Below are positions 17,558 to 40,744 of a DNA stretch of 64,000 nucleotides, one piece after another. Every line of letters starts with the position of its first letter. Positions within the stretch are counted from its first letter, which is position 1. Under the pieces are notes generated by a model. It ran no database searches. It was not told the DNA's origin and saw nothing but the letters and a program-made list of their open reading frames with translations. This DNA is from Pseudoalteromonas sp. A25 (GTDB lineage Bacteria > Pseudomonadota > Gammaproteobacteria > Enterobacterales > Alteromonadaceae), in NCBI RefSeq assembly GCF_009176705.1, contig NZ_AP021847.1, positions 734,501 to 798,500 on the forward strand, given 5' to 3'. Both the position numbers and the translations under genes were made by a program.

Positions 17558-18292
17558 ATGCTATTAAACTGTGATTTGGGAGAAAGCTTTGGCGCTTGGA
17601 AAATGGGCCTAGATGAACAAGCTATGGCAGTGATCGACTGTGCCAATATTGCCTGTGGGTTTCATGCAGGCGACCCCTGCGTAATTGCCAAAACTTTAAA
17701 ATTGGCCAAACAGCACCAAGTGATGATTGGTGCACACCCCAGTTATCCAGACTTACAAGGGTTTGGCCGCCGCTCTATGAAAATGAATGCAACAGAATTA
17801 ACTGATACACTGCATTATCAAATTTCAGCACTCGATGGCATGGCACAATGCCAAGACTTAACGCTTTCATATGTTAAACCTCATGGCGCTCTGTACAATG
17901 ATATGATGGCCGACGAATCACTACTAAAAATAGTGATCCAGGCAATTGCGAGCTACCCCAAAGACTTGAAGTTGATGGTACTCGCTACGGCTCGCCAGCA
18001 AGCCCATCAAGCTCTTGCTGATGAATTTGGTGTCTCGCTTATGTTTGAAGCGTTTGCTGACAGGCTTTACACCGATAATGGCATGCTCACACCACGCTCT
18101 CAAGCTAACGCTGTACATGATAAAACAGCACTTATGGCACAAGTTAAGCAATTGGCACTGCAAGGCTGTGTTACTACTGAGTCAGGCAAACAACTCGCGT
18201 TGCGCGCTGATACGCTATGCGTGCATGGCGACAACGAAGCAAGTATCGCGCAAATTCAAGAGATCAGTATTTTACTAACTCAATCTAGTTAA
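17558..18292 (+). CDS. pxpA: 5-oxoprolinase subunit A (LamB/YcsF family)
   Basis: The 244-residue protein starts MLLNCDLGESFG and contains the family blocks CGFHAGDP (near 34) and KPHGALYN (near 108). PxpA works with PxpB and PxpC to open 5-oxoproline to glutamate using ATP. No pxpB or pxpC lies in the window, so the partners must be elsewhere or the enzyme has another role. It follows the GH3 gene by eight bases and is likely co-transcribed. Oddly, its last codons contain an exact 20-bp copy (18261-18280) of the repeat that forms the array at 32.3-32.9 kb. Confidence 0.92.
   Translation: MLLNCDLGESFGAWKMGLDEQAMAVIDCANIACGFHAGDPCVIAKTLKLAKQHQVMIGAHPSYPDLQGFGRRSMKMNATELTDTLHYQISALDGMAQCQDLTLSYVKPHGALYNDMMADESLLKIVIQAIASYPKDLKLMVLATARQQAHQALADEFGVSLMFEAFADRLYTDNGMLTPRSQANAVHDKTALMAQVKQLALQGCVTTESGKQLALRADTLCVHGDNEASIAQIQEISILLTQSS
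18261..18280 (+). repeat. Solitary copy of the GATC/TTTTACTAACT 20-mer inside pxpA
   Basis: AGATCAGTATTTTACTAACT matches the array consensus AGATCA-N3-TTTTACTAACT at all 17 fixed positions. It lies in coding sequence, translating as part of the EISILLTQ tail of PxpA. It is the only full copy I found outside the array. Confidence 0.7.
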
Positions 18293-25100: not shown

Positions 25101-25792
25101 CCGCGCAGGCTCACAGCAATGCCTCCAAACAAGCGCTGGTAGAGTCACTAGATAAAATTCATGTAAATATTGAATCAACGCAAGCTCAGTGGTTGGAATG
25201 TAACAGTCGGTTAAAGCAGCATGAACAAAACATCACGTCACGCGCTCAGCAACAAGCAACCCTAACACAGCTGCAAACACAGTATGAACATTGGTACTTA
25301 CTAGACAAATTGCTAGGAGATGCCACAGGCAAAAAGCTACGTAATATAGCGCAAACGCAAACGCTGAAAATTTTACTACAGTATGCCAACCAGCATTTGC
25401 GTAGTTTATCGAAAAGGTATCGGCTAACAGTGATAGGCCACTCACTTAACATCGCCATAATCGACAAAGACATGGCCGATGAACAGCGCTCAGTTAACAC
25501 CCTCTCAGGGGGTGAATCATTTTTGGTTTCTTTAGCATTAGCGCTGGGCTTAGCGTCGCTGTCGGCGAACAAAGTGCAGATAAGCTCGCTATTTATTGAT
25601 GAAGGGTTTGGAACACTTGACCCTGAGACCTTGAGTGTTGCGCTGGATGCGCTAGACTCATTGCAAGCACAAGGCCGAAAGGTCGGCGTGATCTCTCACG
25701 TTAGTGAAATGACAGAGCGTGTTGCAACACAAGTACACGTTAAAAAACAGCCCGGTGGTTACTCCAGCATTCAAATAAAAGGACAAGCTTAA
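22130..25792 (+). CDS. sbcC: SbcCD exonuclease ATPase subunit SbcC
   Basis: The 1220-residue Rad50-type ATPase has Walker A GDTGAGKS near residue 35, a very long coiled coil unusually rich in glutamine (about 200-1000), the zinc hook CMVC near 602, the signature LSGGES near 1125 and Walker B LFIDEGFGTLD. The hook dimerises two SbcC arms; the heads sit with SbcD. The coiled coil is somewhat longer than in E. coli SbcC (about 1050 residues). It overlaps sbcD by four bases and the downstream methyltransferase by one base (TAATG). Confidence 0.97.
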   Translation: MKLLSLSIKNLASLTHADVDFESPPLSQSGLFAITGDTGAGKSTLLDGICLALYGKTARLKNDLKNTVAFNGDEIKLNDPRNLLRRGSAQGQAEAKFIGQDGERYIARWKIERARKKADGKLKRAEHLLIRCSDESVLTQSSSATVNKVEQLIGLSFEQFTRAVLLAQHEFAAFLKASADERAQLLECLTGTDKFSRLGQAIFERHKEKKSKLEQTKQSLAHYQILTTEELTALNIQLESLDNELKQLQTQRDQYQQDMQWLNTNEQLQQKHDQYQQLLLEINTQLGAQAPAVEQAQLAQVVQQIADNRQQAQMLNAQHSQLQAQHSELSKQDYSQQISEQQNTVASAQRAQQTATEQLKGQEPKVKQVRALDNQRSVAQQQVSDSQKQIKATQQTVEDNQAQLTDLTDQLSKNKAQQDDIQTQLAQSSKFASAHKHWSHLNSIFENIKDCSDRIEQYQHQCNEQRTQHQALIQQLDPLKVQIEQQQQSFNELELQQLEVEKQLSSLDYEAIQKQHYDLKSAINLSSQGQKCEHELLQLATSIDKGRHQQTTLKLQLQDTEKQVELHKQRALITQQNLTQVQVRASDNISALRAQLKEGEECMVCGATEHPYGVEHIDSHWQALIADFSAQQQSAVKAQQQSQQRYNEQMVAHEQVNAQLQVSLQRKAQLIEQQAQISEQLKVFGYDAYPNSDEAQQQVQALEQDLKRYSEFSKQQQTLWSKIKSSQQSLSTCKQQYTEAQQQLQHLTNTIAACEQSTQDNQQNLSKLKNDAQQLFSDDTWWLSFEHNPHNALDSLRADVEQYDVWQKTAEGLVQTQQQLQSKLESCEHHHHLQSNQLTQQQTQLAQLQQTLFELDTQRSQLLALEHNVDDWFGSLQTQLEQSNQQLNQAKEKLARLEHEKHQQALKLTHLRAQLDDNETQQNTVAERFDTWLNTQREQHQELTTERVSELLSTPFEQYEQVLEAHHQQQQRHTQAHARLSHLLEEIEHHAAQAHSNASKQALVESLDKIHVNIESTQAQWLECNSRLKQHEQNITSRAQQQATLTQLQTQYEHWYLLDKLLGDATGKKLRNIAQTQTLKILLQYANQHLRSLSKRYRLTVIGHSLNIAIIDKDMADEQRSVNTLSGGESFLVSLALALGLASLSANKVQISSLFIDEGFGTLDPETLSVALDALDSLQAQGRKVGVISHVSEMTERVATQVHVKKQPGGYSSIQIKGQA

Positions 25793-26457
25793 TGCCAAAT
25801 TTTAAAGCTGATGAAGCGCTAAACTACGATCAACGTATCACTCGTTTAGTACCAGGGTATGAGCTACTCCACGAGCTAACCGCCGCACAATTAAAAACCC
25901 TATTACCCGATGAGGCTACCATTTTGGTCGTCGGCGCAGGTACCGGCAAAGATATCATTGAGCTTGCGCAAATAAATCCTCTTTGGCACTTTATTGCGCA
26001 AGATATTTCTGAAGACATGCTTGCTATTGCAGATCGTAATTTTACTAACTTAGGTTTGAGCAGCAGAGTCACAATCGTCAATGGTCCGTTAACGCCAACA
26101 GGCGAGCACATTGATGCAGCTTTATGCTTGCTCGTGTTACACTTTTTACCTGATGACGGTGATAAAGAAGCGTTACTAAAAGCTATTCGCAGTCAGCTTC
26201 CCCATAAAGCCCCTTTCTTTTTAGCCGATTTGATTGCTCCAGAAACAGAATTTGAACGAGAATCTCAGCTTTTCGCATGCAGACAATTAGGATTAACAGA
26301 GGTTGGGGAGCAACGCATGCGTCACAACCTACATCATGAGTTTTACCCACTAGATAGAATGCGCTTATCTGAGCTACTTGCACAAACGGGATTTGATACG
26401 CCACATCATTATTTCAAAGCACTAGGCTTTACAGGGGTAGTTTGTCGCGCCGATTAG
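25792..26457 (+). CDS. SAM-dependent class I methyltransferase
   Basis: A 221-residue methyltransferase with the SAM-binding motif VVGAGTGKD (about residues 46-54), an acidic D at the end of strand 2, and the motif ALCLLVLHFLPDD. Family resemblance is to small-molecule or tRNA-type Methyltransf_12 proteins; the substrate is unknown. Its ATG overlaps the sbcC stop by one base, so it is the third gene of the sbcDC operon. Its 3' end overlaps the convergent receiver gene by 29 bases. Confidence 0.82.
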   Translation: MPNFKADEALNYDQRITRLVPGYELLHELTAAQLKTLLPDEATILVVGAGTGKDIIELAQINPLWHFIAQDISEDMLAIADRNFTNLGLSSRVTIVNGPLTPTGEHIDAALCLLVLHFLPDDGDKEALLKAIRSQLPHKAPFFLADLIAPETEFERESQLFACRQLGLTEVGEQRMRHNLHHEFYPLDRMRLSELLAQTGFDTPHHYFKALGFTGVVCRAD

Positions 26458-26854: not shown

Positions 26855-27382
26855 CTAGTCCAAGCTATGTAATATGTCACATAGTTTGTTGATTTTTATA
26901 TTACTTAATTGTCGATAGTCTAAGAAGGGGCAAACTACGAGGTTATGCGTTTTATCCACTGCAAACTCCGTATCTAGCCAAACAAGTGAGTTGGTAAAAA
27001 TATGATCTCTTAATAGCTTTTTCGCGTAGGTTCTTCCCGCAATAATATGAAAGCGGTATTTGGGATTATCTAACTTTGGCGGGCTAAATAGTAAGGCTTC
27101 TTGACTGTGGCTTTGCAATAAACATTGCTCCCGATAGGCCTGCCAGCTTCCATAGTTAGTAAAATTGTGATCTCTGTGCTTTAGTTGGCCCAGTATTTTG
27201 GCATAAACATTAAATATTTTTCGCCAACCATTCCCAGACGCTAGGCTTATCATTTCAGTCTCACCAATGCTAAGTGGCTGAACAAGTTCTAAATTTTTAT
27301 ATTCCAGCATAGGTGGCATATGCTCAATATATATTGCAACCAAACCACTTGCTTGCCCAAATCCATGAGTTAGTATTTTCAT
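26855..27382 (-). CDS. Uncharacterised protein co-transcribed with the DUF188 gene
   Basis: A 175-residue soluble protein with no signal peptide or membrane segment. I do not recognise the family with certainty. It has conserved-looking Trp and Tyr motifs ([21 protein letters not shown]) and a C-terminal helix. Its ATG overlaps the stop of the DUF188 gene by four bases, so it is the second gene of that minus-strand operon; such close coupling suggests a real, conserved protein. Confidence 0.7.
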
Positions 27383-27840: not shown

Positions 27841-27936
27841 TCACTTTATATCTCACTTGGTATAAAGTTGATCTTAACGTTTCTTGCTCACGTAACCTAC
27901 TATTATTTATATAAATAACCAAAATTTGGAATTAAC

Positions 27937-30594: not shown

Positions 30595-30618
30595 GCCCAA
30601 AATATGGAAGTCATAAAA

Positions 30619-32262
30619 ATGAAATACCCTACTTTTGTTGCCTTTATCGCATTAAGCTTGCTAGCAGGTTGTGATCAACCACAACAACATCATGTCACAC
30701 ACTCTCAAGATACTGTGCTGGATGCCCCTTACAATGTAGGTGAAGATATTCCCGCTACAGCGTACCTCAAGCATAATGAGACTTATAATGCAGAGTCCGT
30801 CATCCCACCACAGTGCTATACAAAAACCGATGGCGTAAATAACCCATGCTACGCTTGTCACCAAACCGACAAAAGTGACACTAACAGACCAAATCAAATG
30901 TTTGATGGGCACTTGCAAGGTAGTTACGACTTTTCAGATCTTGGCACTAAAAACCATTGGAAAAACCTATTTATTGATCGAACAGAATTAGTTAAAAATA
31001 TATCTGACGAACAGATATTGGATTGGATCAATCATGATAACTTCAGTGACTTTATCGCCAAGCAAAAAAACAACAATGATTGGCAAGGCGAAGTTACTCC
31101 AATTGAGAATCTAGCATACCCTGAAAAAGCGTTTGATAAACTTGGTTTTGCTCGCGACGGCAGCGGGTGGGTCGCTTTTAACTACAAACCTTTTCCAAGC
31201 ACGTTTTGGCCAACCAATGGCTCAACAGGCGATGTGATGATCCGTCTCCCAGAGGCGTTTAGAAACCTTAAGGGCGTGTACAATCAGGATGTATATCTAG
31301 CAAACTTAAGTTTGGTTGAAATAGCACTTAAGGGCTTAGACGGTTTATCAACACCAGAAATAGACGAACAAAGAATTGGCAAGGACCTCAATAATGATGG
31401 CCAACTTAGTAAAATCTCGCACTTGAACAAACAGAGCCATTATGTTGGTGACACAAGTGATACGCTCGATTATCAATTGTATCCAGAGGGGACCGAGTTT
31501 TTACATACGGTAAGATACATCGGTGTGACAAAAGATGGCGCTATCTACAACGCCCCAAGAATGAAAGAAGTGCGCTATATGAAAAAACACCGCTTTAAAT
31601 CAAAGGCAGCCCTAGCTTCTTCTTATTATCGAGAAGCCAAAGAAAAATCTTTTGAACAATTGCCTCAGACGCTGTATATCGGAGATCGCGGCGTAAACAA
31701 TACTTTTGGCTGGCTCATTAATGGCTATATAGAAGATGCACAAGGCGAACTAAGACCTCAACATGAGCAAGAATTGGCATTTTGTAATGGCTGCCACAAA
31801 ACGGTTGGGTCAACCTACGACCAAACATTCTCATTTGCGCGCAAAGTAACTGGGGCGAAAGGATGGGGTTACATTAACTTAAACACAATGCAAGATGTGC
31901 CTAATAAGGGTGAGCAGCATGGCGAATTTTTAACTTATATGGAGCGTGTTGGAGGTGGAGATGAGTTTCGTCAAAACCAAGAAATGCTTATGCGCTGGTT
32001 TAACGACGATGGTAGCGTGAATAAGAAAAAAGTGGCCAAAGCAAAAAATTTATACGAGTTAATAACACCATCACCTGAGCGTGCATTGGCATTAAATAAA
32101 GCTTATTTGACTATCGTCAAAGAACAAAGTTATATCTTTGGTCGCGACGCAACACTTGTCGAAGCTCAGAATGTGTTACAGCAGGTTGATGAGTCTCAAC
32201 AACCGCTTCAGCCAGAACACCGCTATGTGTGGGACATGCAGCTAGACTGGTCAAATTTATAA
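30619..32262 (+). CDS. Diheme c-type cytochrome-like lipoprotein of unknown role
   Basis: The 547-residue protein has a lipobox ending LLAGC and two c-type heme-binding sites, CYACH near residue 78 and CNGCH near residue 390. The rest is a large globular region that I do not recognise. It should be a periplasm-facing, membrane-anchored electron carrier or redox enzyme. The start at 30619 is chosen because GGAAG lies eleven bases before it; an upstream in-frame ATG at 30604 lacks one. It follows the phoX terminator, so it is possibly expressed only by read-through or from its own promoter. A terminator follows. Confidence 0.72.
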   Translation: MKYPTFVAFIALSLLAGCDQPQQHHVTHSQDTVLDAPYNVGEDIPATAYLKHNETYNAESVIPPQCYTKTDGVNNPCYACHQTDKSDTNRPNQMFDGHLQGSYDFSDLGTKNHWKNLFIDRTELVKNISDEQILDWINHDNFSDFIAKQKNNNDWQGEVTPIENLAYPEKAFDKLGFARDGSGWVAFNYKPFPSTFWPTNGSTGDVMIRLPEAFRNLKGVYNQDVYLANLSLVEIALKGLDGLSTPEIDEQRIGKDLNNDGQLSKISHLNKQSHYVGDTSDTLDYQLYPEGTEFLHTVRYIGVTKDGAIYNAPRMKEVRYMKKHRFKSKAALASSYYREAKEKSFEQLPQTLYIGDRGVNNTFGWLINGYIEDAQGELRPQHEQELAFCNGCHKTVGSTYDQTFSFARKVTGAKGWGYINLNTMQDVPNKGEQHGEFLTYMERVGGGDEFRQNQEMLMRWFNDDGSVNKKKVAKAKNLYELITPSPERALALNKAYLTIVKEQSYIFGRDATLVEAQNVLQQVDESQQPLQPEHRYVWDMQLDWSNL

Positions 32263-32272
32263 TGCAACGATT

Positions 32273-32302
32273 AAGCTGATCCTGCTATAGATCAGCTTTT
32301 TA
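32273..32302 (+). terminator. Rho-independent terminator of the diheme lipoprotein gene
   Basis: AAGCTGATC pairs perfectly with GATCAGCTT around an eight-base loop, followed by TTT. Its 3' arm is shared with the first repeat copy of the array (32289-32308). Confidence 0.7.
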
Positions 32303-32332
32303 CTAACTGAGTAATTACAATTACTCAGTTAG
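32303..32332. repeat. 30-bp palindrome at the array's left end
   Basis: CTAACTGAGTAATT and AATTACTCAGTTAG are perfect 14-base arms around AC. The left arm overlaps the end of the first repeat unit, so the palindrome includes the ACTAACT part of the motif and its reverse complement. Confidence 0.65.
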
Positions 32333-32473
32333 ACTAGGCTTATCTGACTGCAAGTTAATAAAGATCAGGATTTAACTAAGTTTTAAAAAAGCGCGCTAGT
32401 AGATATTGATACTCGCGTTTTCTTTTACATTCACTTTCCTGCCACTCATATTAAGACTTTAAAAATAAATATA

Positions 32474-32486
32474 AATCAAACAGTTA
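32474..32486 (+). promoter_or_regulatory. IHF consensus site within the array region
   Basis: AATCAAACAGTTA fits WATCAANNNNTTR at every position. It lies in an A+T-rich stretch just before the denser half of the repeat array, as in many replication origins and nucleoprotein sites. Confidence 0.5.
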
Positions 32487-33028
32487 AACTTAAAGGCAGC
32501 TATATTATCGAGCAGATAGTTAAGATCAATATTTTACTAACTCAGCCTATTTTTCCATGATTTAGTACGCCACCCCGGCAACTCTCAATGGAAAGATCAA
32601 ATTTTTACTAACTCAGAAACACTTACCAACGGCGGGTTTAAATACATTTTGCCAACTCAGATCATATTTTTACTAACAAGTATCGTAACTAGCCTCACAG
32701 ATCATATTTTTACTAACTGCCTTCTGTAGTGAGATCAGTTTTTTACTAACTTTGACGCTGGCAGATCGATATTTTACTAACTTGATTTAAAAACAACCTG
32801 CTCAGATCATAATTTTACTAACATTAGTTAGTAAAAACATGATCTCTTTAGGGTAAACACACCTGTGATATCACGTAATAGCCTGTCAAAAGCCAAAAAA
32901 ATGCTTTCCAAACAAACTCAGTAAGTAAAATCGTGATCTCAGAAATCCACTTCTTGCTGGCCAAATTATGAGTTGGTAATTTTTTGGTTTATGGGCGTAG
33001 GTTCTAACTCGCTCTGTAGGTCTATGTT

Positions 33029-33628
33029 ATGCTTATCATTTTGATTACTCAAACAATGCTAATGCAACTACTAGATCAAATTAAAACATGTACACTGTGT
33101 GAACAATCACTTCCTTTAGGCCCAAAACCAGTACTGCAAGCTAATAAAAACTCAAAAATATTGTTAGCAGGACAAGCACCGAGCCTAAACGTGCACAAAA
33201 CAGGTAAATTATTTAATGACGCAAGTGGTAAACGCTTGAGGAATTGGCTCAATGTGGATGAAGCACAGTTTTATAATGCAGATAACTTTGCCATTATCCC
33301 AATGGCGTTTTGTTACCCAGGAAAAGGCCGCTTAGGAGACTTACCTCCTTCGCCATTATGCGCAAAAACATGGCACGAGGCGTTACTTAGCCAACTAAAC
33401 AACATAGAACTAAAGATCATTATTGGTCAATATGCTCAGCGCTATCATCTAGAGAAACACACATCACTGACAGAGCAGGTGGGTAAATGGAACACGCTTT
33501 TACCAACACAAATCGTTCTACCTCACCCAAGCCCTAGAAATCAAATGTGGTTAAAACACCATCCATGGTTTGAAGCTGATGTGCTCCCAGTATTAAGAGC
33601 ACGTATTAAAGAAGTTTTACAACCATAA
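33029..33628 (+). CDS. Uracil-DNA glycosylase superfamily protein
   Basis: A 199-residue protein with the UDG-superfamily layout: an N-terminal cysteine pair in CTLC, a nucleotide-pocket block GQAPSLNVHKTGKLFNDASG and the C-terminal HPSPRN motif. Most similar to the small uncharacterised UDG-like family that lacks the classical family-1 active-site signature, so actual glycosylase activity is not certain. Possible starts are 33029 (AGG eight bases upstream) or 33062. It lies immediately right of the repeat array. The next gene converges after eight bases. Confidence 0.8.
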   Translation: MLIILITQTMLMQLLDQIKTCTLCEQSLPLGPKPVLQANKNSKILLAGQAPSLNVHKTGKLFNDASGKRLRNWLNVDEAQFYNADNFAIIPMAFCYPGKGRLGDLPPSPLCAKTWHEALLSQLNNIELKIIIGQYAQRYHLEKHTSLTEQVGKWNTLLPTQIVLPHPSPRNQMWLKHHPWFEADVLPVLRARIKEVLQP

Positions 33629-40171: not shown

Positions 40172-40744
40172 ATGCAAGTTGGAATTTTCATTTATGATGG
40201 CGTTGAAATCCTCGATTTCTCTGGCCCTTATGAGGTTTTTTCCTCTGCCAACAAATATACTAGTGAGCATCTTGGGGTAAGTCTTGTTGCTCCTTCACAA
40301 GCCCCAGTAAGAACAAGGGGAGGAATGAGTGTCAACCCCCATTACAGTATTTATGCGGCCCCGCACTTTGACTTACTGATAGTCGCTGGCGGCAAACATC
40401 AAGGAATAATGACAAACCCAACTGTTCTAAATTGGCTAGCCGAGACAGCCCAGCATACGAGAGCTTGCGCATCCGTATCTACTGGCGTATTCCTGTATGC
40501 TCAAGCTGGGCTTATTGATGGCAAAAAAGTCACAACGCACCAACTAGAAATAGACGAGTTAAAAAGTAAATACCCAGAACTGAATGTTGTGAATGATGTT
40601 CGCTACATTATGGATCAAAACTTTACTAGCTCAGCTGGCATTTCAGCAGGGATCGATATGTGCCTAGCACTTGTAAAAAGAAAATTTGGCGAAAAAGTGG
40701 CTAAACTGACTGCGCAACACATGGAATATGGCTGGCATGACTAG
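40172..40744 (+). CDS. DJ-1/PfpI family protein
   Basis: A 190-residue DJ-1/PfpI protein: VGIFIYDGVEILDFSGPYEVF at the N-terminus, and the block CASVSTGVFLYAQAG. The usual nucleophile cysteine of the elbow appears as Ser/Thr here (SVSTG), with the cysteine three residues earlier (ACASVS), so peptidase- or glyoxalase-type activity is uncertain. It is more like the amidase-type domain of AraC regulators (GATase1-like) but lacks a DNA-binding part. GGAG precedes the ATG at 40172. Confidence 0.82.
   Translation: MQVGIFIYDGVEILDFSGPYEVFSSANKYTSEHLGVSLVAPSQAPVRTRGGMSVNPHYSIYAAPHFDLLIVAGGKHQGIMTNPTVLNWLAETAQHTRACASVSTGVFLYAQAGLIDGKKVTTHQLEIDELKSKYPELNVVNDVRYIMDQNFTSSAGISAGIDMCLALVKRKFGEKVAKLTAQHMEYGWHD

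Follow-up and report, generated by a model that had tools for sequence, protein, structure and literature searches.

We identified an array of eleven iteron-like repeats on the chromid of Pseudoalteromonas sp. A25, which very probably represents a set of extra-origin binding sites for the chromid initiator RepA. The array lies in a 766-bp intergenic gap (positions 32263-33028) of a 64,000-nucleotide stretch, hereafter called the window, which corresponds to positions 734,501 to 798,500 of contig NZ_AP021847.1 (G000:C2:734501-798500, where G000 stands for the A25 genome and C2 for the 850,536-bp chromid of this 4.74-Mb, two-contig genome). We read the array as RepA iterons because its motif recurs at the chromid origin (ori2) beside repA, because it is found throughout the genus, because plasmid relatives of RepA are accompanied by iterons with the same start, and because RepA is predicted to have an initiator fold. 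A cluster of diverged copies of the same motif is located behind fbaA on the main chromosome. As a whole, it appears probable that the array acts as an early-copied sink for RepA, with the fbaA cluster serving as a timing signal.

An array of eleven repeats in a 766-bp gap

The gap is bounded by the end of a lipoprotein-like open reading frame (ORF) at 32262 and by the start of a uracil-DNA glycosylase (UDG) ORF at 33029. Within it, the motif AGATCA-N3-TTTTACTAACT occurs nine times on the forward strand and twice on the reverse strand, as had been described in a sequence-only reading of the window. The forward copies are located at 32289-32308 (copy 1, AGATCAGCTTTTTACTAACT), 32362-32381, 32523-32542, 32594-32613, 32659-32678, 32699-32718, 32732-32751, 32763-32782 and 32804-32823, and the inverted copies at 32826-32845 and 32920-32939. 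Six of the eleven (those starting at 32289, 32523, 32594, 32699, 32732 and 32826) are exact at all 17 fixed positions, while a motif scan detected the other five, four with a single mismatch (32659, 32763, 32804 and 32920) and the diverged copy at 32362 with two. All copies are packed into 651 bp, and this is the largest of the chromid arrays seen in A25. Spacing in the middle of the array amounts to 40, 33, 31 and 41 bp and the outer copies are 65-161 bp apart, so that the denser centre reported in the sequence-only reading was confirmed. When up to three mismatches were allowed, the window contained 17 motif matches, as compared to a mean of 0.37 and a maximum of 3 in shuffled sequences, and the gap contains 12 GATC sites where 2.1 would be expected from their density in the window. 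That reading had also pointed to an IHF site and to the absence of a replication gene nearby. An IHF consensus is indeed present at 32474-32486 on the forward strand, but it constitutes weak evidence because this 13-mer is present 12 times in the window, where 5.9 occurrences would be expected; the absence of a replication gene was borne out, repA being located ~56 kb away.

The motif recurs at the chromid origin

C2 was assigned as a chromid because it carries parB2, parA2, repA and tus at 820.9-826.0 kb, and a cluster of this type is the gene set described for the Pseudoalteromonas chromid origin (PMC7858055; here and below, statements taken from papers cited by PMC number refer to the portions of these papers that were available to us). 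The GC skew is negative in 41 of the 43 20-kb bins of C2, and a dif-like site (dif2) is present at 75,143. From the skew and dif2 we infer that the long arm of the chromid is replicated leftward from ori2 (~823.4 kb), in which case the array at 767 kb, situated on this long arm ~56 kb from ori2, would be copied early.

The chromid holds 20 of the 21 near-exact motif copies of the A25 genome, none of them farther than 71 kb from its origin, and every chromid copy that deviates at no more than one position maps at 752-824 kb. The first 740 kb of C2 contain no sites scoring 14/15 or higher and seven sites scoring 13/15. A looser scan revealed more copies at 813.5-814.0 kb, with a 30-32 bp spacing at 813.6 kb, and in the gap between parA2 and repA. 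This 683-bp gap at ori2 holds six sites scoring at least 13 of 15, together with two DnaA boxes, 12 GATC sites and a TTTACT-C-AGTAAA palindrome. Since the genome encodes SeqA and a Dam-family methylase, control via the GATC sequences is possible.

While tus is clearly recognisable by ori2, matches to the E. coli ter core are only scattered on the chromid: a search with a 12-base form of this core, allowing one mismatch, gave five such matches, the nearest at 12 kb from dif2.

Conservation of the motif and of the array locus

The sequence GATC-N4-TTTTACTAA was found in all 99 genomes of our genus sample. A scan of the contig collection with the full motif gave at least 119 stretches and, among the 80 loci listed, 69 were titled Pseudoalteromonas, the remaining 11 having one match each. 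The array-holding gap was aligned between A25 and three relatives (G050, G024 and G042), and this showed that the motif columns are 88% identical to the A25 reference as opposed to 39% for the other columns, with a mild bias from choosing the motif columns by their score in the reference. This indicates that the copies were kept while the spacer drifted. Furthermore, the lipocalin-UDG locus bears motif copies in the more distant genomes G088 and G008.

The distribution of matches over the chromid arms was determined for genomes with full match lists and a mapped dif2. In all 12 one-armed chromids of this kind (G000, G012, G021, G028, G040, G046, G059, G069, G075, G079, G085 and G088), the short arm showed no match between ori2 and dif2, and extra-origin clusters were located on the long arm; a lone, far-off match in G085 (562 kb) does not constitute a cluster. 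The test did not include G008 (12 of its 16 matches listed, in agreement with the others), G047 (matches listed in part), G017 (intermediate dif2), and G002 and G066, the chromids of which look bidirectional by dif2.

Plasmid relatives of RepA are accompanied by iterons

RepA was found in 98 of the 99 Pseudoalteromonas genomes searched, and relatives are also present in H13, H16, Shewanella and Rheinheimera. Eleven plasmid loci were fetched (L139-L147, L386 and L387), one of which (L142) came without upstream sequence. The RepA relatives encoded at these loci are 42-52% identical, and all ten readable loci have AGATC iterons that diverge in their 3′ halves, the AGATC start being followed by TTTTCCTCTATG or ATTTCCTCTATG, by ATTTACACGTTATT, by ATTACCCGATTAAA or by ATTACACCATTT; since several of the plasmids are near-identical, this amounts to about four independent repeat types. 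As judged from these sequences, the plasmid repeats appear to vary together with the initiator among the RepA relatives. Loci L146 and L147 were at one stage taken to lack iterons, as the ~960 bp at the start of the gene contain 0 and 1 GATC, respectively. This was wrong, the AGATC iterons being located upstream of parA. Loci L149, L151 and L152 were counted for GATC and the core word only.

RepA is predicted to have a tandem winged-helix initiator core, the best Foldseek matches for the predicted model of a 94%-identical RepA being domains 2-3 of RctB, followed by pi and RepE. At the sequence level, RepA is 27.8% identical to the initiator of pRA1, and Rep3_N was reached by only three of 27 RepA relatives (E up to 0.1; best 0.0054). 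Sequence searches with RepA against PDB chains and NCBIfam returned no initiator, and RctB was not found by a profile search against PDB sequences.

Several individual loci deserve mention. Besides iterons of its own, which belong to a different type, the plasmid of L139 (G008:C3) has copies of the chromid type (for instance AGATCAAATTTTTACTAAG) at ~0.57-0.83 kb downstream of rep; these copies possibly represent a link to chromid control. In G023 (C7:471413-472631), RepA was matched in two overlapping pieces, one of them with a stop, possibly due to a frameshift or an assembly error. The chromid of G017 has a second initiator gene (C2:15739-16680, L150), which is 28% identical and has its own repeats; it is perhaps a captured plasmid replicon, and similar matches were obtained in G003 and G034. 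Lastly, a Pseudoalteromonas plasmid (L387:65-1180) carries a gene resembling that for the DNA polymerase III beta-clamp, divergently oriented beside RepA and the iterons.

A cluster of diverged copies behind fbaA

The sole main-chromosome match of A25 is located between fbaA and phoB, amid further diverged copies. Such an fbaA cluster was present in all 30 near-closed genomes examined, which are those with at most 10 contigs among the 99 (33 genomes) after leaving out G048, G068 and G087, and it was also present in the drafts G032 and G057. In 27 of the 30, three to eight copies scoring at least 13/15 are located within ~540 bp of the fbaA end, arranged in two opposed groups with many steps of 30-32 bp. 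The notion that the cluster always lies within this distance failed for G066, G069 and G075, where it is located ~1.5-2.3 kb downstream. None of 11 outgroups with 1.2-1.5 kb of sequence downstream of fbaA carries a copy in that region, a control that would miss a cluster as distant as in G066 or G069. For this comparison, 40 genomes from the order were used; among them, 12 others have an fbaA of at least 73% identity, one of which (L193) offered only 2 bp downstream.

Footprints in 16 genomes from four groups gave values for the motif columns and for the remaining columns of 0.89 and 0.50, 0.97 and 0.58, 0.99 and 0.94, and 0.99 and 0.88, the last two groups being too closely related for a strong contrast. 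The fbaA copies are more diverged than those of the array, and their first base is G in 67% of 119 copies. Altogether, we are inclined, by a small degree, to regard the fbaA cluster as a candidate trigger of the crtS type.

One genome, G001, consists of a single 3.63-Mb Pseudoalteromonas contig without a RepA match, and has an intact fbaA cluster (G001:C1:3357055-3357240; L126, L163). The simplest reason is that the chromid record is missing, the alternative being that the fbaA site has another role.

There is modest evidence that the distance between the fbaA cluster and dif1 tracks chromid arm length: it correlates with the longest chromid arm with r = 0.84 in 26 of the 30 genomes, G001 (no RepA match), G020 and G023 (not closed) and G022 (no dif1 match) having been left out. 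In G069, the sole chromosomal dif match, at 369 kb, appeared to be unrelated, and the midpoint was taken as dif1. Omission of G040, where dif1 is off-centre, raises the correlation to r = 0.91; the distance then exceeds the chromid arm by 284 kb on average, with a standard deviation (sd) of 87 kb and a range of 160-530 kb, as compared to 695 kb in G040. The sd of the cluster-dif1 distance itself is 202 kb.

Proposed role of the array and alternative explanations

The array would double soon after firing of ori2, and the doubled array would then bind free RepA, such that a second initiation in the same cycle would be hindered. Dam methylation and SeqA could modulate the binding of RepA at the conserved GATC. 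On the diverged fbaA cluster, RepA would give the opposite signal, related to timing, upon copying of that cluster. Titration of RepA seems to us, with some hesitation, the likely main job of the array. With similar reserve, we favour a checkpoint in which one iteron couples two replicons, where copying of the fbaA cluster would license RepA at ori2 and the arrays on the chromid would switch the chromid off.

The sequence-only reading had named a site for binding or titration of the chromid initiator as one model, on which the motif should recur at the chromid origin and at the same locus in related species. Both expectations agree with our findings, namely the variants in the parA2-repA gap at ori2 and, for the array locus, the copies in G088 and G008 as well as the gap alignment of relatives; together with the iterons beside plasmid RepA homologues, they support such a model, in which RepA would be the binding protein. 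The crtS-type control site of main chromosomes, which that reading listed among the known kinds of such arrays, does not apply to the array in the window because this array is located on the chromid; the crtS-like cluster of the same motif sits behind fbaA, outside the window.

Several observations weigh against our explanation. RepA relatives near 28% identity have looser or different repeats, and those of pRA1 lack the AGATC core. The RepA model is of middling quality (pLDDT 73.9, pTM 0.73), and its initiator matches have TM-scores of 0.26-0.36 by query length. The form of the motif in the array (TTTTACTAACT) differs at the 3′ end from that of most ori2 copies (TTTTACTAAG), so that another factor could prefer one of the two forms. 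The number and distance of the chromid clusters vary, sites in G047 being located 75 and 183 kb from ori2 among the matches listed, and, as most short arms measure ~15 kb, the preference for one arm carries weight chiefly in G000, G028 and G075. Genome size explains part of the correlation between cluster position and arm length, the partial r being 0.65 in 25 genomes and 0.60 (p 0.03) in 14 hand-made groups that do not amount to a formal phylogenetic correction. Moreover, the sd of the excess would already be 143 kb if the distance between origin and site were constant, and 114 kb if the fraction were constant, as compared to the observed 94 kb.

Conceivably, RepA binds to the array while the role of the latter is architectural, through handcuffing with ori2 or with the fbaA cluster that would hold chromid and chromosome together. 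Contacts between crtS and ori2 as well as handcuffing have been described for RctB (PMC6090056, PMC11711613), and opposed groups of sites are found both in the array and behind fbaA. The present evidence does not separate pairing from titration, and we consider an architectural role possible, though rather unlikely. If instead the array were a centromere, its repeats would be bound by ParB2 and spread near the origin in the manner of parS sites. Repeat arrays act as centromeres on some plasmids. The A25 sites do cluster within 71 kb of the parA2B2-repA locus, the ori2 gap contains the TTTACT-C-AGTAAA palindrome, and of the ten plasmid loci where AGATC iterons are present, four have a relative of ParA2/ParB2 or a gene of the ParA family in their vicinity. 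However, the motif of the array is asymmetric and not palindromic as a parS site would be. In addition, seven of these ten loci showed no ParA2/ParB2 match in the fetched stretch; after setting aside pTML1, which has a ParA-family gene at the edge, six loci with AGATC iterons and no such match remain (L139, L140, L143, L144, L145 and L387). As the 3′ halves of the iterons differ between plasmid types and a conserved cluster is present on the main chromosome, a centromere appears improbable.

A fork trap, in which the copies would serve the Tus encoded on the chromid as its missing ter sites, was considered first because tus lies by ori2 (E 4.7e-80; G000:C2:825089-825967, L029:5089-5967), and it was initially favoured. 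The motif shares an ACTAA core with the E. coli ter sequence. In P. tunicata, ter sites were sought and not found, as far as the available portion of the study tells (PMC7858055), and the ter site drawn in a review is accompanied by a question mark (PMC10331603). Nevertheless, GC skew and dif2 assign the sites to the arm that is copied early, at a great distance from ter2, and a single fork would meet them in both orientations, so that either polarity would block this fork. The phased tandem spacing of 31-41 bp and the plasmid relatives point to RepA instead. The fork trap was dismissed on account of the skew, dif2 and the mixed orientations on the early arm, and we now attach hardly any likelihood to it. 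Equally little speaks for an ordinary operator for a regulator of the flanking genes: the array does follow the lipoprotein gene and precede the UDG gene, but ori2, the main chromosome and the interior of several genes have copies as well, and no single operon explains this distribution.

Neighbouring genes and outlying copies in the window

The left neighbour of the array (30604-32262, forward strand) is a lipoprotein-like ORF with two CxxCH motifs and no Pfam match, and the right neighbour (33029-33628, forward strand) is a gene of the uracil-DNA glycosylase superfamily (PF03167). An inverted repeat (32303-32332) with perfectly matching 14-bp arms around a 2-bp loop overlaps the 3′ end of copy 1 and could represent a terminator or a second operator.

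Six of the 17 motif matches in the window are located outside the array, four of them in reading frames at 18-28 kb. One of these copies is present at 18261-18280 (forward strand) in a 244-residue ORF (17558-18292) and another at 26031-26050 (forward strand) in an ORF (25792-26457) that looks methyltransferase-like from a reading of its sequence; copies similar to the latter are present in L134, L135 and L138. The other two, at 26989-27008 and 27154-27173 (both reverse strand), reside in a DUF6942 gene, where they share the same frame and each encode D-H-x-F-T-N, so that the DNA sites may have shaped the protein. The two remaining matches are weak, with three mismatches each: that at 27855-27874 (reverse strand) is located between the DUF188 and lipocalin genes, and that at 40612-40631 (forward strand) may be due to chance.

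Comparison with known systems

The partner of the datA site of E. coli is DnaA, an initiator of the AAA+ class, which datA binds and whose nucleotide state it affects; in this partner datA differs from the array described here. The two are alike in that datA is also a proposed initiator sink near the origin (PMC3937223). With iteron plasmids of the Rep_3 type, such as those relying on RepE of F, pi of R6K or RepA of the IncA plasmid pRA1, the array shares phased direct repeats and, as predicted from the RepA model, a tandem winged-helix initiator; iterons of a conjugative plasmid are the subject of a further paper (PMC7848731). Unlike in these plasmids, a large array is present far from the origin, it is conserved in the genus, and a second set is located on another replicon.

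Another close counterpart is formed by the RctB titration sites of Vibrio cholerae, where sites ~40 kb from ori2 inhibit initiation; Baek and Chattoraj (2014, PMC3937223) proposed that they constitute a sink that doubles early. In both cases, the sites are extra-origin, tens of kb from ori2 and probably copied early, and the core fold of the initiator is predicted to be shared. The array differs in that it comprises eleven copies in 651 bp plus outliers, on a chromid that appears to be copied mainly one way.

Chromid and main chromosome of Pseudoalteromonas finish copying together (PMC7858055, PMC13342612). In the portion available to us, Xie et al. (2021) considered that the main chromosome might hold a timing site and did not find one similar to crtS (PMC7858055), and a 2026 survey treats such timers as an open question (PMC13342612). 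Our literature search, which covered few subscription papers, retrieved no published iterons, distal array or crtS-type site for the Pseudoalteromonas chromid. A lag of ~200 kb separates crtS from ori2 in V. cholerae (PMC6090056), and the position of crtS relative to second-replicon length was subjected to the same kind of test in 29 Vibrionaceae (PMC5854411). The crtS site measures 62 bp and has been called a new kind of site, unlike iterons (PMC11711613, PMC3937223). The fbaA cluster is like crtS in being one conserved main-chromosome site whose position is tied to the copying time of the second replicon with a lag (mean 284 kb), and it is unlike crtS in consisting of two convergent groups of diverged iterons.

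The motif yields a testable pair, made up of a putative chromid-borne sink and of a candidate trigger at the fbaA locus, and it would bear on whether the solution of Vibrio was invented once or repeatedly. By analogy with these systems, the array would belong to a known kind, that of extra-origin initiator sites, in a new form, while the fbaA cluster would, provided that it functions in the suggested way, represent a second crtS-type timer, one that operates for one-way-replicating chromids too.
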